From positions 2,666,001 through 2,730,000 of the forward strand of contig NZ_AP014936.1 in NCBI RefSeq assembly GCF_002355415.1: 64,000 nt of DNA, read 5' to 3'. Below the pieces are notes generated by a model. It ran no database searches, had not been told where the DNA came from, and saw only the letters and a program-made list of their open reading frames with translations. The position numbers were made by a program, and so were the translations under genes. This DNA comes from Sulfurifustis variabilis. Its GTDB lineage: Bacteria; Pseudomonadota; Gammaproteobacteria; Acidiferrobacterales; Sulfurifustaceae. This document shows positions 40,298 through 45,677 of the stretch, piece by piece. Positions within the stretch are counted from its first letter, which is position 1; every line of letters starts with the position of its first letter.

Positions 40298-42010
40298 CTA
40301 ATCGGGCAGGCCCGCCTTGCGCAGCCCGTCGAGCAGGTGATCGAGGTGCGCGGGATCCTTGAACGGGAAGGTCACGGGCAGCCGCGAAAGCGACATCCCG
40401 GGATAGAGCAGGGTGAGCTGCTCGATCATCCAGCGCGCGTCCGAGATCCGATCGGCGCGCACATAGGCGGCCGCGAGCAGAAGCTGTATGCGGGGGTGCG
40501 CGGGGCTGATTTCGAGCGCCTGTTCCAGTGCGGCGATCGCATCGGGATAGCGCGCCTGAACGAGGTCGAACTCGCCGCGCATCATCAGGTACGCCGACGG
40601 CACGCGCGGGTTGAGGCGTGTCGCCCGATCGAGCGCCGGGCGCGCCTGCTCGGGCCGGCCGGCGAAGTAGAGCACGTACGACAGCAGGCCATGCGCGTCG
40701 GCATAGCTCGGACGCAGCGCGAGCGCCCGGTCGAGCTCGCGGATCGCACCTTCGTGATCCCGACGGAACAGCGCGACGAAGGCGTTGACGAAATGCACTT
40801 CGGCCAGCTCCTCGTCGAGATCCAGCGCCTGCCGGGCCAGCGCTTGCGCTCGATCCAGCGACGTCTGCGGGTCCTCGTCCCAGCCGCCGATGACCTGCTG
40901 GAGATGCGTGAGCCCGAGGTTGGCATAGGCTCGCGCGAACCTCGGGTCGAGCGCGATCGCGCGCTCGTAGTACGCCTTGGCCGAGCCCATGTCGTCGGGC
41001 GAGCGGCGCCCGTAGTGGTCGAGGCCGCGCAGGAAATGGTCGTACGCCTCCACACTGGCGGTGTACTTCCCCGCCACGCCGCCCGGGTGCGTGGCGAGCC
41101 GGACCTCCAGCACCTCGGCGATCTCACGGGTGATCGACGACTGCAGGGCGAGCGTGTCCTCGAGCGTGGCGTCGTAGCGCTCGGCCCAGAGATGCCGTCC
41201 GTCGACGGTATCGATGAGCTGGGCGTTGACGCGGACGCGTGCGCCCTCCCGACGTACGCTTCCGCGCACGGCATAGCGCACGCCGAGCTCGTCACGCACG
41301 CGCTCGAGGCTGTCTTCGCTGCGGTAGGCGAATGCCGAGCCCCGGGCGATGACCGACAGCGCCGGGATCCTGGAGAGCTCGGTGATGAGGTCCTCCGTGA
41401 TGCCGTTGCTGAAGTAATCCTGCCCCGGATCGGCGGCGAGGTTGGCGAAAGGAAGGACGACGATCGACGCGCCCCCGGGAGCCCGCACGGCCCGTTCGCC
41501 ATTGCCCGACGTCTGCAGCCACCAGGCCACGACGAGGGCGAGCGTCAGCAGTCCGGGGAGCGCCCAGGCGACAGGCTTCTTCCTGTACAAGGGATCCCGG
41601 CGGGCGGCTGCCGGTGGCGGCGCGGGCCGCGCCATGGCGGGCGGACGCTCGGGGATCGGCTCGACGTCGGCGATCAGTCGATAGCCCTTCTTCGAGAGGG
41701 TCTCGATGATCTGCGGGTGGCGGGAGTCGTCGCCCAAGGCGCGACGCAGCTTGATGATCACGTTGGTGACGGCGTCGTAGCTCACCACTCTGCCGGCCCA
41801 GACCGAGGCTTCCAGCTCCTCGCGGCCGACGACCCGCCCCTTGTGCCGGGACAGGTACACGAGCACGTCCATCACTTTCGGCTCGAGCGCGACCTCGTGG
41901 CCGTCGCGGGAAATACGGCTCGTGGCGGGCTCGACCGCCCAGCCGGCGATCCGGAACCGGCGGATGTCCTCCCCTGCCGTCTTCGGCTCTTCGTGCCCGG
42001 TCGTCGACAC
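40298..42010 (-). CDS. CadC-like membrane regulator with TolB and TPR domains
   Basis: A 570-residue protein. An N-terminal OmpR-type winged helix (ALEPKVMDVLVYL, ETLSKKGYRLIADV; residues 18-115) is followed by one membrane helix (about 147-165), a TolB-like domain (SIVVLPFANLAAD, GSVRREGARVRVNAQLID) and at least four TPR repeats. Such CadC/ToxR-like proteins bind DNA in the cytoplasm and sense in the periplasm. It is divergent from soxY with 110 bp between the starts, so it is a candidate regulator of the sox genes. Confidence 0.87.
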   Translation of the reverse strand: MSTTGHEEPKTAGEDIRRFRIAGWAVEPATSRISRDGHEVALEPKVMDVLVYLSRHKGRVVGREELEASVWAGRVVSYDAVTNVIIKLRRALGDDSRHPQIIETLSKKGYRLIADVEPIPERPPAMARPAPPPAAARRDPLYRKKPVAWALPGLLTLALVVAWWLQTSGNGERAVRAPGGASIVVLPFANLAADPGQDYFSNGITEDLITELSRIPALSVIARGSAFAYRSEDSLERVRDELGVRYAVRGSVRREGARVRVNAQLIDTVDGRHLWAERYDATLEDTLALQSSITREIAEVLEVRLATHPGGVAGKYTASVEAYDHFLRGLDHYGRRSPDDMGSAKAYYERAIALDPRFARAYANLGLTHLQQVIGGWDEDPQTSLDRAQALARQALDLDEELAEVHFVNAFVALFRRDHEGAIRELDRALALRPSYADAHGLLSYVLYFAGRPEQARPALDRATRLNPRVPSAYLMMRGEFDLVQARYPDAIAALEQALEISPAHPRIQLLLAAAYVRADRISDARWMIEQLTLLYPGMSLSRLPVTFPFKDPAHLDHLLDGLRKAGLPD

Positions 42011-42120: not shown

Positions 42121-42597
42121 ATGACAAATCGCAAACGCAGGACTTTTTTGAAGCAGGGCCTTGCCTCCGCGCTCGTCGGCGCGGGGGCCTCGGCCGGACT
42201 GCTCGCACCCGCACGACTGCTGGCGGAGTGGCCACGCCAGGCGTTCGAGGCCAAGGGCGTTGACGACGCCCTGAGGGGCCTTTACGGCGGAGCGTCGCCG
42301 CAGGCGGCGCCCGAGGGTGCGATCACCATCAAGGCACCGGGCGAAGCGGAGAACGGCGCAGTCGTGCCCATCACGATTACGACGAATCTCCCGAACGTCC
42401 GGCAGGTCGCGATCCTCGGCGAGAAGAATCCGATTCCCCTCATCGCGAGCGCCGCGTTCAGCGGCGCGCTGCCCTACCTCGCGATGCGCATCAAGATGGG
42501 CGAGAGCTCGGACGTGCACGTGGTCGTGGAGACGGCCGACGGCCTCTATCGGGCGCGCCGGAACGTGCGCGTCGCGGTCGGCGGCTGCGGCGCCTGA
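42121..42597 (+). CDS. soxY: Sulfur carrier SoxY
   Basis: A 158-residue protein from ATG 42121, with AGGAG before it. A twin-arginine signal (RKRRTFLKQG) directs folded export. The C-terminus carries the swinging-arm motif GGCGA with the sulfur-binding Cys156; the usual form is GGCGG. SoxY holds thiosulfate-derived sulfur covalently as SoxYZ in the periplasm. soxZ follows 25 bp later. No soxXA, soxB or soxCD is visible in the window. Confidence 0.94.
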   Translation: MTNRKRRTFLKQGLASALVGAGASAGLLAPARLLAEWPRQAFEAKGVDDALRGLYGGASPQAAPEGAITIKAPGEAENGAVVPITITTNLPNVRQVAILGEKNPIPLIASAAFSGALPYLAMRIKMGESSDVHVVVETADGLYRARRNVRVAVGGCGA

Positions 42598-42622
42598 GCG
42601 CGCCGCGATACAGGAGGCAACC

Positions 42623-42943
42623 ATGAGCAGAAGCATGAAGGTACGCAGCCGCCCGCACGAGGGCGGCGAGGTCGAGCTGGTCGTCCTGGTCAACCATCCG
42701 ATGGAGAACGGCCTGCGCATCGACAAGCAGACCGGACAGAAGATCCCGGCCCACTTCATTCAGGAGATCGCCGTCGCGCACAACGGCCGTGTCGTCGCGA
42801 CCGTCGCGACGGGCGGCGGCGTCTCGCAGGATCCGCTGCTCGGCTTTCGGATTCCCGGGACCAGGCCCGGCGACACCCTGACGGTTTCCTGGCGCGACAA
42901 TCGGGGCGAATCGGACTCCGTCGAAACCACCGTGTCGCCCTGA
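42623..42943 (+). CDS. soxZ: Sulfur carrier partner SoxZ
   Basis: A 106-residue protein with the SoxZ immunoglobulin-like fold: VELVVLVNHPMENGLR, KIPAHFIQEIAVAHNGR, LLGFRIPGTRPGDTLTVSW. It has no signal peptide of its own, as is usual, and is co-exported with SoxY by the Tat pathway. AGGAGG precedes the start. Confidence 0.95.
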   Translation: MSRSMKVRSRPHEGGEVELVVLVNHPMENGLRIDKQTGQKIPAHFIQEIAVAHNGRVVATVATGGGVSQDPLLGFRIPGTRPGDTLTVSWRDNRGESDSVETTVSP

Positions 42944-43055
42944 TGCCGGGGGGCGCGGGCCGGCGCGATTTTCGTTAAGCTCGCGCGGGCGCCGGCGCGC
43001 CGCGACGACACCCTCGGCCCGCGCCTGGCGCGAACCAACCGAATGGAGGAGACGC

Positions 43056-44102
43056 ATGATCCATGAGCGCTCGGGACGCCGGCCGGGCATCGCTGCCCGG
43101 TGGCTGGTCGCCCTGGTCCTGGCCGCAGTGGCAGCGACAAGCGGGCTCGCGGCCGAGACGCCGCGCGGCCGCCTTGCGGGCGGACAGGCCTACGATCTGC
43201 CGCCCTGGTTCAAGAAGAGCTTCCTCGCCGTGCGCGACGACGCCCGGGAGGCCGGCGCGCAAGGACGCCATGCGATGCTGTTCATGCATCTGAAGGAATG
43301 TCCATACTGCGCGCGGATGCTGGACGAGAACTTCCGCGCGGGCGGGACGAAGGAATTCATGGAGCGGCATTTCGACGTGATCGCCATCGACATCCGGGGG
43401 AGCAGTCCCGTCGAGTGGCTGGACGGCAAGAGCTATACCGAGCGGGAGCTGGCGGAGGCGACGAAGGTCGTCGCGACGCCGACGGTGGTGCTCCTGAACG
43501 CCGAAGGAAAGGTCGTGCTCAGGCTCAACGGCTACCGCCAGCCGCCGGCCTTCCGCCACGCGCTCGAGTACGTGCAGGGACGCCACTACGAGAGACAGAC
43601 GCTCGCACAGTTCGTGGAGCAGCGGAGTAACGAGACGGTTTACCGGTTTCGGACCCACCCGAAGTACGTCGAGATGACGAACTTCAAGGGCTACGCCAGG
43701 CCCCTCGCCGTCGTCTTCGAGGACGGGGACTGCACCGACTGCGACGAGTTTCACGACAAGGTGTTCACGCATCCGGAGGTGCGGCCGGAGCTCGACGAGT
43801 TCACGGTCGTCCGGCTCGACGCGTACTCCACTTCGCCGATCGTCGACATCGAGGGGCGCAGGACAACGCCGAAGGACTGGGCCAAGCGGCTCAACCTCGT
43901 CTACCGCCCCGGCATCGTGCTCTTCAACGAGGGCAAGGAACGCGCGCGCATGGACGGCATGCTCTACCGCTTCCATTTCAAGGAGCTGCTGCGCTACGTC
44001 AGCGGGCGGTACTACTACCAATACCCGACCAAGACCCAATACAACGCGGCGCGGCGGGAGGAGCTGCTGAAACAGGGCGTGGTGATCGACTACTCCCAAT
44101 AA
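43056..44102 (+). CDS. Double thioredoxin-domain protein, SoxW-like
   Basis: A 348-residue periplasmic protein. The signal peptide ends near SGLAAETP. The first thioredoxin-like domain has C82-P-Y-C85 in LKECPYCARM and the cis-Pro motif ATPTVVLL. The second has C226-T-D-C229 in GDCTDCDEF. SoxW of sulfur oxidisers is a single-domain thioredoxin that keeps SoxYZ reduced, so a two-domain form is unusual. Being third in the soxYZ operon argues for the same task. Confidence 0.85.
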   Translation: MIHERSGRRPGIAARWLVALVLAAVAATSGLAAETPRGRLAGGQAYDLPPWFKKSFLAVRDDAREAGAQGRHAMLFMHLKECPYCARMLDENFRAGGTKEFMERHFDVIAIDIRGSSPVEWLDGKSYTERELAEATKVVATPTVVLLNAEGKVVLRLNGYRQPPAFRHALEYVQGRHYERQTLAQFVEQRSNETVYRFRTHPKYVEMTNFKGYARPLAVVFEDGDCTDCDEFHDKVFTHPEVRPELDEFTVVRLDAYSTSPIVDIEGRRTTPKDWAKRLNLVYRPGIVLFNEGKERARMDGMLYRFHFKELLRYVSGRYYYQYPTKTQYNAARREELLKQGVVIDYSQ

Positions 44103-44243: not shown

Positions 44244-45677
44244 GTGTACACGGACGTACTGATCATCGGCGGCGGGATCGCCGGACTCGCGTGCGGCGTC
44301 GGGCTTTGCGGTAACGGGCTGCGCGTCGTCGTGGTCGAGCAGAGCGCGGCGCTCGGCGGGCGCGCGCGGAGCTGGGTCGACCGGGAGACGGGCGACGTCG
44401 TCGACATCGGCCCGCACATCCTGTTGAGCGAGTACCGCAACATGCTCCGGCTGCTGGAGCTGCTCGGCACGCGCGAGCGGATCGCGTGGCGCACCGACCG
44501 CTTCATCACCCTGTTCGAGAAACCGCACGCCGTGCCGGTACGCATGGGCCGGCTACCCGCCCCGCTGCACTTCGTGCGCAGCATCCTTTCGGCGCCGACC
44601 ATCTCGATCGCGGACGCGAACTCGAACGCCCGCACAACCTGGACCGCGATGCGCCTCACGGAGGACGACGTGCAGCGGCTCGACGGCGTCGCGGCCGCCG
44701 ACTTTCTGCGCGGCCAGGGCGTGACGAAGCGCTTTCGCGACTGGTTCTGGGCGTCCACCGCCATGTCGATCATGAACGTGCCGCTCGAGCGCTGCTCGGC
44801 CGGCGCGCTCCTGCGCTTCTACCAGCTCCTGCTCGGGCACAACGATCTGCGGATGGGCTTCCCCGCCATCGGACTGAGCGAGCTCTACGTGCCGCAGGCG
44901 ACGAGGCGCATCGAGGCGGACGGCGGGCGGATCCTGACGCAGTCCGGCGTGAAGCGGCTGACCGGCGCCGACGGCGCGCCCGTCGGTGCGGTGCTCGCCG
45001 ACGGCACGCGCGTCGACGCGCGCTGGTGCGTCAGCGCCGTCCCGCCGCAGTCGCTCGGGGAGATCCTGCCACCCGAGTGGCGCGGTCGCGACCCGGCTTT
45101 CGCGGAGCTGTCCGCCTTCGAGCCGAGCCCCTACGTCAGCACCTATCTCTGGTTCGACCGCAAGCTCACTCGCGAGCCGAGCTGGGCGCGCGTGTGGTCG
45201 CCGTCGAACCTCAACTACGACTCGTACGACCTGTCGAACATCCGTTCCGGATGGGAGGCCCGGCCCTCCGTGATCGCCAGCAACATCATCTACAGCCACC
45301 GCGCGGACGGCATGAGCGACGAGGCGATCGTCGACGCGACGCGGCGCGAGATCGCGGAGTACCTGCCGGAGGCCGCGTGGTCGACACTACGCCACGCGCG
45401 GGTGCACCGCATCCCGATGGCGATTCCCTGCCCCTTCCCCGGCACCGAGCGCAAGCGGCCGCCGACGCGAACCGCGCTGCCCGGGCTGCTCCTCGCCGGA
45501 GACTGGACGCGCACCGGTTTTCCCGCCTGCATGGAGAGCGCGGTGCGCTCGGGATGGCTCGCCGCCGAGCAGATTCTCGCCGAGGCCGGCCGGCCGCGGC
45601 GCCTCGCGCTGGGGCTCGACGCGCGGGAGGGGATCACGGGGCTGGTACAGCGTCTGCGCAGGGCGACCGGGACCTGA
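44244..45677 (+). CDS. FAD-dependent desaturase/amine oxidase-like (HpnE-type)
   Basis: A 477-residue protein from GTG 44244. A dinucleotide-binding GGGIAGLACGVGL lies at the start, followed by GGRARSWVD and a DVVDIGPHILLSEYR block. Near the C-terminus GLLLAGDWTRTGFPACMESAVRSG contacts FAD. It belongs to the phytoene desaturase/protoporphyrinogen oxidase superfamily and resembles the hydroxysqualene dehydroxylase HpnE. The other hpn genes are not in the window, so the pathway is uncertain. Confidence 0.75.
   Translation: MYTDVLIIGGGIAGLACGVGLCGNGLRVVVVEQSAALGGRARSWVDRETGDVVDIGPHILLSEYRNMLRLLELLGTRERIAWRTDRFITLFEKPHAVPVRMGRLPAPLHFVRSILSAPTISIADANSNARTTWTAMRLTEDDVQRLDGVAAADFLRGQGVTKRFRDWFWASTAMSIMNVPLERCSAGALLRFYQLLLGHNDLRMGFPAIGLSELYVPQATRRIEADGGRILTQSGVKRLTGADGAPVGAVLADGTRVDARWCVSAVPPQSLGEILPPEWRGRDPAFAELSAFEPSPYVSTYLWFDRKLTREPSWARVWSPSNLNYDSYDLSNIRSGWEARPSVIASNIIYSHRADGMSDEAIVDATRREIAEYLPEAAWSTLRHARVHRIPMAIPCPFPGTERKRPPTRTALPGLLLAGDWTRTGFPACMESAVRSGWLAAEQILAEAGRPRRLALGLDAREGITGLVQRLRRATGT

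Follow-up and report, generated by a model that had tools for sequence, protein, structure and literature searches.

Within a 64,000-nucleotide stretch of the Sulfurifustis variabilis genome (contig NZ_AP014936.1, positions 2,666,001 to 2,730,000; hereafter, the window), an extra soxY/soxZ gene pair is followed on the same, forward strand by a gene for a secreted protein with two thioredoxin domains in tandem, referred to here as the double thioredoxin. Judged from sequence and gene distribution, these genes may form a module accessory to a truncated Sox system, in which the double thioredoxin would act as a periplasmic thiol/persulfide reductase that strips the sulfane sulfur from SoxYZ for import and oxidation by Dsr; this reading is tentative and is held at somewhat less than even confidence. 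A wider proposal, about which there is more doubt, is that the tandem thioredoxin family could be the link that is missing, in the periplasm, from truncated Sox to Dsr in the cytoplasm. In this case it would be a dedicated persulfide reductase or two-site sulfur relay that unloads SoxYZ and supplies SoxT-like importers, with one CxxC site taking the sulfur, the other supplying electrons from DsbD, and, in Sulfurifustis, a SoxYZ of its own. The many sulfur oxidizers that lack SoxCD need to move sulfane sulfur from SoxYZ to the cytoplasm, a transfer described in passages of recent papers as occurring "by unknown means" (PMC11582611) or as "still a mystery" (PMC10451225). Likewise, a model figure for Thioalkalivibrio marks the dissociation of the sulfane from SoxYZ as an unknown mechanism (PMC6382920). 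The double-thioredoxin family, which follows SoxY and DsrA and is scarce with SoxC, is a concrete, testable candidate for this removal. The pairing with soxYZ is a lineage-specific and modest local detail; it is the family behind it that makes the open question testable.

The extra soxY, the third copy in the genome (42121..42597, with its ATG at 42121), encodes a protein of 158 amino acids that starts with a twin-arginine-type signal (RRTFLK). It scores 100.6 bits against the Pfam SoxY model and 130.6 bits against NCBIfam TIGR04488, above the curated cut-off of 125. The carrier cysteine, Cys156 (codon 42586..42588), is the only cysteine of the protein and the third residue from the C-terminal end. 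It lies within a GGCGA tail, whereas both paralogues end in GGCGG; compared with the C-terminal GGCGG swinging arm, the GGCG with its cysteine is retained and the final glycine is replaced by alanine. The partner gene, soxZ (42623..42943, with its ATG at 42623), begins after a gap of 25 base pairs (bp) and encodes 106 amino acids, none of them cysteine, with a score of 105.2 bits against TIGR04490 (curated cut-off, 76). Together, soxY and soxZ encode a bona fide SoxYZ pair. A recent duplication was considered as its origin and rejected, given that SoxY is 53-57% identical to both paralogues and that no closer SoxY was found in 57 genomes. In the 112 bp that separate soxZ from the thioredoxin gene (42944..43055), a pattern scan recognized neither a terminator nor a σ70-like promoter.

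The double thioredoxin (43056..44102, 348 amino acids) has an N-terminus that, judged by eye, resembles a signal peptide, followed by the Pfam domains Thioredoxin_2 (PF13098, residues 67-170) and Thioredoxin_7 (PF13899, residues 215-263). Its only cysteines are those of the two active sites: C82 and C85 in CPYC (residues 82-85; 43299..43310), and C226 and C229 in CTDC (residues 226-229; 43731..43742). Both cysteines of each site are invariant among 21 aligned members. When the two domains are aligned with each other, CxxC falls on CxxC and proline on proline, with a local score of 115 (shuffled sequences, 28.1 +/- 4.8; 0 of 500 as high), and an AlphaFold model contains two thioredoxin folds (mean predicted local distance difference test score, 88.9). 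By this alignment, the two domains are evidently an internal duplication. A sequence-only reading of the DNA had named soxY, soxZ and a two-domain thioredoxin with CPYC and CTDC, in that order, and the family models, the Pfam domains and the cysteine positions all confirm this.

The same reading had described the locus as lacking soxXAB and soxCD. The genome searched, a single contig of 3,958,814 bases, contains three SoxY and three SoxZ copies, located in a core cluster at 3.035 Mb, in the window and, as an orphan pair, at 1.168 Mb. Within the core soxXYZAB cluster (about 3.035-3.039 Mb), SoxA and SoxB lie beside soxYZ, and a SoxX-like frame containing CxxCH lies upstream. The only full SoxB match in the genome is at 3037271; searches for SoxB and SoxC gave matches outside the window and none inside it. 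SoxC remains below its cut-off throughout the genome (best match, 211.7 versus 420 bits), and SoxD was not part of the search. Published accounts, as available in part, also credit S. variabilis skN76 with soxXYZAB, Dsr, Soe and other systems (PMC5024460; PMC6397845); further soxYZ copies do not appear in the available part of the gene inventory in PMC5024460. Thus, the described absence holds for SoxB and SoxC in the window, and for SoxC in the genome as well; the absence of soxXAB is only local, because a soxXYZAB cluster is present elsewhere. A complete sox cluster with its own soxYZ and soxW, which that reading thought would make the window pair redundant, was found in part: soxXYZAB is there, and no SoxW-like gene was recognized among the open reading frames of the core cluster.

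Of 57 genomes from the order Acidiferrobacterales, 30 show a match of some kind to the double thioredoxin, and 12, S. variabilis included, have a close one (at least 52% identity). Both CxxC sites are retained in the members inspected, save one that is interrupted by masked sequence. Across a sample of the class Gammaproteobacteria, in which a carrier is defined by a match at E 1e-30 or better, the double thioredoxin is present in 115 of 369 genomes. A tree of 106 members divides into two clades of 53 each (support, 100/99), and the window protein groups with relatives from Sulfuricaulis. At least two CxxC motifs occur in 104 of the 106, Sox-linked members are found in both clades, and the domain duplication extends through the family (z >3 in 102 of the 104 members that can be split into two domains).

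The class sample contains SoxY in 190 genomes, SoxC in 50 and DsrA in 117. SoxY is present in 106 of the 115 carriers and in 84 of the 254 non-carriers (Fisher p = 1e-28, uncorrected for kinship). Kinship was handled, though not fully corrected, by thinning to one genome per family (157 genomes, G057-G213, assigned by the family labels listed). After thinning, SoxY is present in 47 of 51 carriers versus 35 of 106 others (p = 4e-13), and DsrA in 41 of 51 versus 13 of 106 (p = 4e-17). When only the 190 SoxY genomes are compared, DsrA occurs in 86 of 106 carriers and 20 of 84 non-carriers, and SoxC in 11 of 106 and 36 of 84, respectively. The corresponding values with one SoxY genome per family are 39 of 47 versus 11 of 35 for DsrA (p = 3e-6) and 5 of 47 versus 15 of 35 for SoxC (p = 0.0014). 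Such a pattern is expected of a protein that serves the removal of sulfane sulfur where SoxCD is absent.

Gene neighborhoods were scanned at 120 loci (named, order and class sets, in which some loci represent the same gene twice). The double thioredoxin has sox genes close by in L094 (Thiothrix eikelboomii), L108, L207 and L208, and at a distance of 11 kb in L209. In L108, soxB is 64 bp away; in L207, soxA is about 120 bp away; and in L208, soxYZAB lies upstream of the double thioredoxin and shares its strand. L207 and L208 were not blind finds, because they were chosen for the close coordinates of thioredoxin and SoxY. Four cases of direct adjacency to a sox cluster (the window, L108, L207 and L208) compare with an expectation of 0.28, or of 0.83 if the assumptions are generous, by a rough estimate for which the numbers of genes, copies and clusters were assumed. 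At L094, the thioredoxin gene is followed by genes for a SoxT-like PF04143 protein and DsrE and then by a sox cluster in convergent orientation (soxB to soxY), and the SoxT-like transporter and DsrE-type protein also adjoin the double thioredoxin in L092 (= L216). S. variabilis itself encodes, at another site, a 400-amino acid SoxT-like protein that is 46% identical to that of L094. DsbD lies directly downstream of the double thioredoxin in L083, L086, L214 and L222, which include Bathymodiolus/Thioglobus-type symbionts. Upstream of it, in seven SUP05/Thioglobus-type loci (L097, L099, L101, L102, L104, L105 and L106), there is a gene for a rhodanese-metallo-beta-lactamase protein; this fusion (6579-7886 in L097, and similar in the other six) is probably periplasmic. 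A linkage to dsr genes was also considered and rejected: tblastn of open reading frames of the dsr region against the 120 loci gave one match, which came from a frame upstream of dsrA rather than from a dsr gene.

The co-occurrence with SoxY and DsrA, the scarcity with SoxC, and the sox, SoxT-like/DsrE and DsbD neighbors make it a reasonable hypothesis that, as the sequence-only reading had suggested, a two-site thioredoxin performs both reduction and sulfur release. Placing this activity inside truncated Sox plus Dsr, rather than in a route of its own, is reasonably the better fit. In the proposed mechanism, SoxXA and SoxB would load the sulfur of thiosulfate onto SoxYZ and release sulfate, leaving SoxY-S-S(-). 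Without SoxCD, the double thioredoxin could then attack the SoxY persulfide with a reduced CxxC site and free SoxY. It would next either release HS-/polysulfide or carry the sulfur as a persulfide of its own, while its second domain would supply the first with electrons received from a DsbD-type donor or pass the sulfur onward. A SoxT-like transporter may import the sulfur, making it available to TusA/DsrE and reverse Dsr. The extra SoxYZ beside the double thioredoxin might add carrier capacity or serve as a dedicated donor.

Several observations weigh against this reading. In the order, the 11 double-thioredoxin loci closest to that of the window all lack a nearby soxYZ, and their neighbors vary. 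A conserved synteny of soxYZ and thioredoxin across the order is rejected on this count, and the pairing, being lineage-specific, could be due to chance. In the whole scan, any of the chosen neighbor genes was found at just 30 of the 120 loci. Furthermore, among the 106 genomes in which SoxY and DsrA occur together, carriers no longer avoid SoxC (7 of 86 carriers versus 2 of 20 others; p = 0.68), so the SoxC effect may simply follow from the link with Dsr. Nine of the 115 carriers are without a detected SoxY, and 6 of these 9 have DsrA. Finally, DsrA is absent from 3 of the 14 clade-A genomes of the class sample (selected by E-value, supported by the tree), two of which (G163 and G279) have SoxC.

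The main alternative is maintenance of the type performed by SoxS/SoxW, in which the double thioredoxin would reduce incorrect mixed disulfides of SoxYZ, or its disulfide dimers, and keep the carrier cysteine reduced, without delivering sulfur. The DsbD genes directly downstream in four loci, which resemble SoxV-SoxW, and the sox-cluster linkage in L108, L207 and L208 suit such a role. However, maintenance predicts equal presence with complete and truncated Sox systems, at odds with the SoxC counts among the 190 SoxY genomes, and it leaves the tie to DsrA unpredicted. It keeps its standing as a serious, if rather unlikely, explanation because the same chemistry would serve plain repair of SoxYZ. 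An unlikely explanation, less well placed, is that the protein is a general periplasmic Dsb-type factor, such as a disulfide isomerase or a helper of c-type cytochrome maturation, needed for many periplasmic redox proteins (e.g. DsrJ), and that its adjacency to soxYZ in Sulfurifustis is coincidental. Most relatives are indeed without conserved neighbors, the nearest solved folds are DsbC/DsbD-like domains, and DsbB adjoins the double thioredoxin, in convergent orientation, in five Sulfuricaulis-type loci: L048 (= L068), L060, L061, L064 and L065. However, so strong a dependence on SoxY and DsrA is not expected of such a helper, and the four direct sox neighbors exceed the rough chance estimate. 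Last, a strong version of the sequence-only proposal, in which the SoxYZ of the window carries a different sulfur compound in a route distinct from classic Sox, is very improbable and in its free-standing form is rejected. Divergent SoxY copies with other neighbors have been described, with the suggestion that they bind different sulfur compounds (according to part of PMC11237559), and the GGCGA tail departs from that of both paralogues. On the other side, the genome has soxXYZAB and reverse Dsr, so that this soxYZ, one of three, does not call for a route of its own. The SoxY passes the model for true SoxY, and no other sulfur enzyme was recognized among the ten window proteins scanned.

The next gene after the thioredoxin gene, 141 bp to its 3' side (44244-45677, forward strand), encodes an HpnE-like protein (hydroxysqualene dehydroxylase; 296.3 bits versus a cut-off of 283). 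Upstream of soxY and divergent from it (40298-42010, reverse strand) lies a gene for a CadC-like regulator that combines a winged-helix domain with TPR repeats. The orphan soxYZ pair at 1.168 Mb (8297-9110 in L013; 7039-7942 in L252) is seemingly common to S. variabilis and Sulfuricaulis limicola, and in both species, with neighbors judged by eye, it lies 3' of Nudix-like and efflux-type genes. Single-domain relatives of the thioredoxin also occur: one in S. variabilis itself (2555206-2555667; 7180-7755 in L014), with 27% identity and a CPWC site, adjoins a TolC-like gene, and one in another genome of the order (G024) adjoins soxY, soxZ and soxB, in the manner of a SoxW (2901-8271 in L210). 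Directly 5' of the core soxXYZAB cluster (3034-6903 in L012, which covers 3026000-3045000) are genes for a DsrE-family protein (PF13686) and a TusA-like protein and, judged by eye, for lipoate-ligase-like and radical-SAM proteins. Such lipoate genes usually accompany sHdr. For S. variabilis, sHdr is not reported in the available parts of its genome papers (PMC5024460; PMC6397845). A SoxB-related protein (2582635-2583873; 275.5 bits, under the SoxB cut-off of 550) is possibly a relative of the 5'-nucleotidase type.

Periplasmic thioredoxins that serve SoxYZ are already known; no description of the tandem form, its spread, or its tie to DsrA over SoxC was found in the open-licence literature. 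SoxS and SoxW of alphaproteobacterial sox clusters are single-domain proteins, from clusters that mostly include SoxCD. The double thioredoxin is like them a secreted thioredoxin-fold protein with CxxC that is genetically tied to SoxYZ, but it has two tandem domains and two active sites, and it accompanies DsrA rather than SoxC. SoxS, a structure of which is cited in PMC10451225, was not recognized among the fold matches listed for the double thioredoxin; the VIA-align rows span almost only domain 1 of the latter. SoxS is reported, in passages of PMC10451225 and PMC11582611, to target SoxYZ.

The Pyrococcus furiosus protein disulfide oxidoreductase (1a8l) and the ERp72 a0a fragment (3idv), each with two thioredoxin folds in a single chain, match the double thioredoxin over 272-285 alignment columns. 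However, identity is 13-15%, and template modeling (TM) scores are 0.26-0.28 by query length and 0.36-0.40 by target length; with Foldseek, the match to the Pyrococcus-type two-domain oxidoreductase has an E-value of 8e-7, a root-mean-square deviation of 14.8 and low whole-chain TM-scores.

At the level of the pathway, the host fits truncated Sox plus reverse Dsr (Sox-Dsr-Soe), with soxXYZAB, Dsr and Soe and without SoxC, but the available parts of the accounts of its genome mention neither the two further soxYZ copies nor the double thioredoxin (PMC5024460; PMC6397845). The expanded SoxY families of symbiotic sulfur oxidizers similarly include extra soxY copies in addition to the canonical one, at separate loci, but the word thioredoxin does not occur in the available part of that paper (PMC11237559). 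Another comparison is with Hden_0679 of Hyphomicrobium denitrificans, a periplasmic, DsbA-like protein with two CxxC motifs that adjoins soxT1A and that, in the available part of PMC11582611, its authors consider to release sulfane sulfur from SoxYZ. The double thioredoxin is also periplasmic by prediction, has two CxxC sites and, at some loci, has a SoxT neighbor. It differs in that Hden_0679 is DsbA-like, has one CxxC at its very C-terminus and no tandem duplication, and is a partner of sHdr rather than Dsr; the second CxxC of the double thioredoxin, at residues 226-229 of 348, is not at the C-terminus. By analogy, a role of this kind is proposed for the tandem thioredoxin, although it is a different protein.
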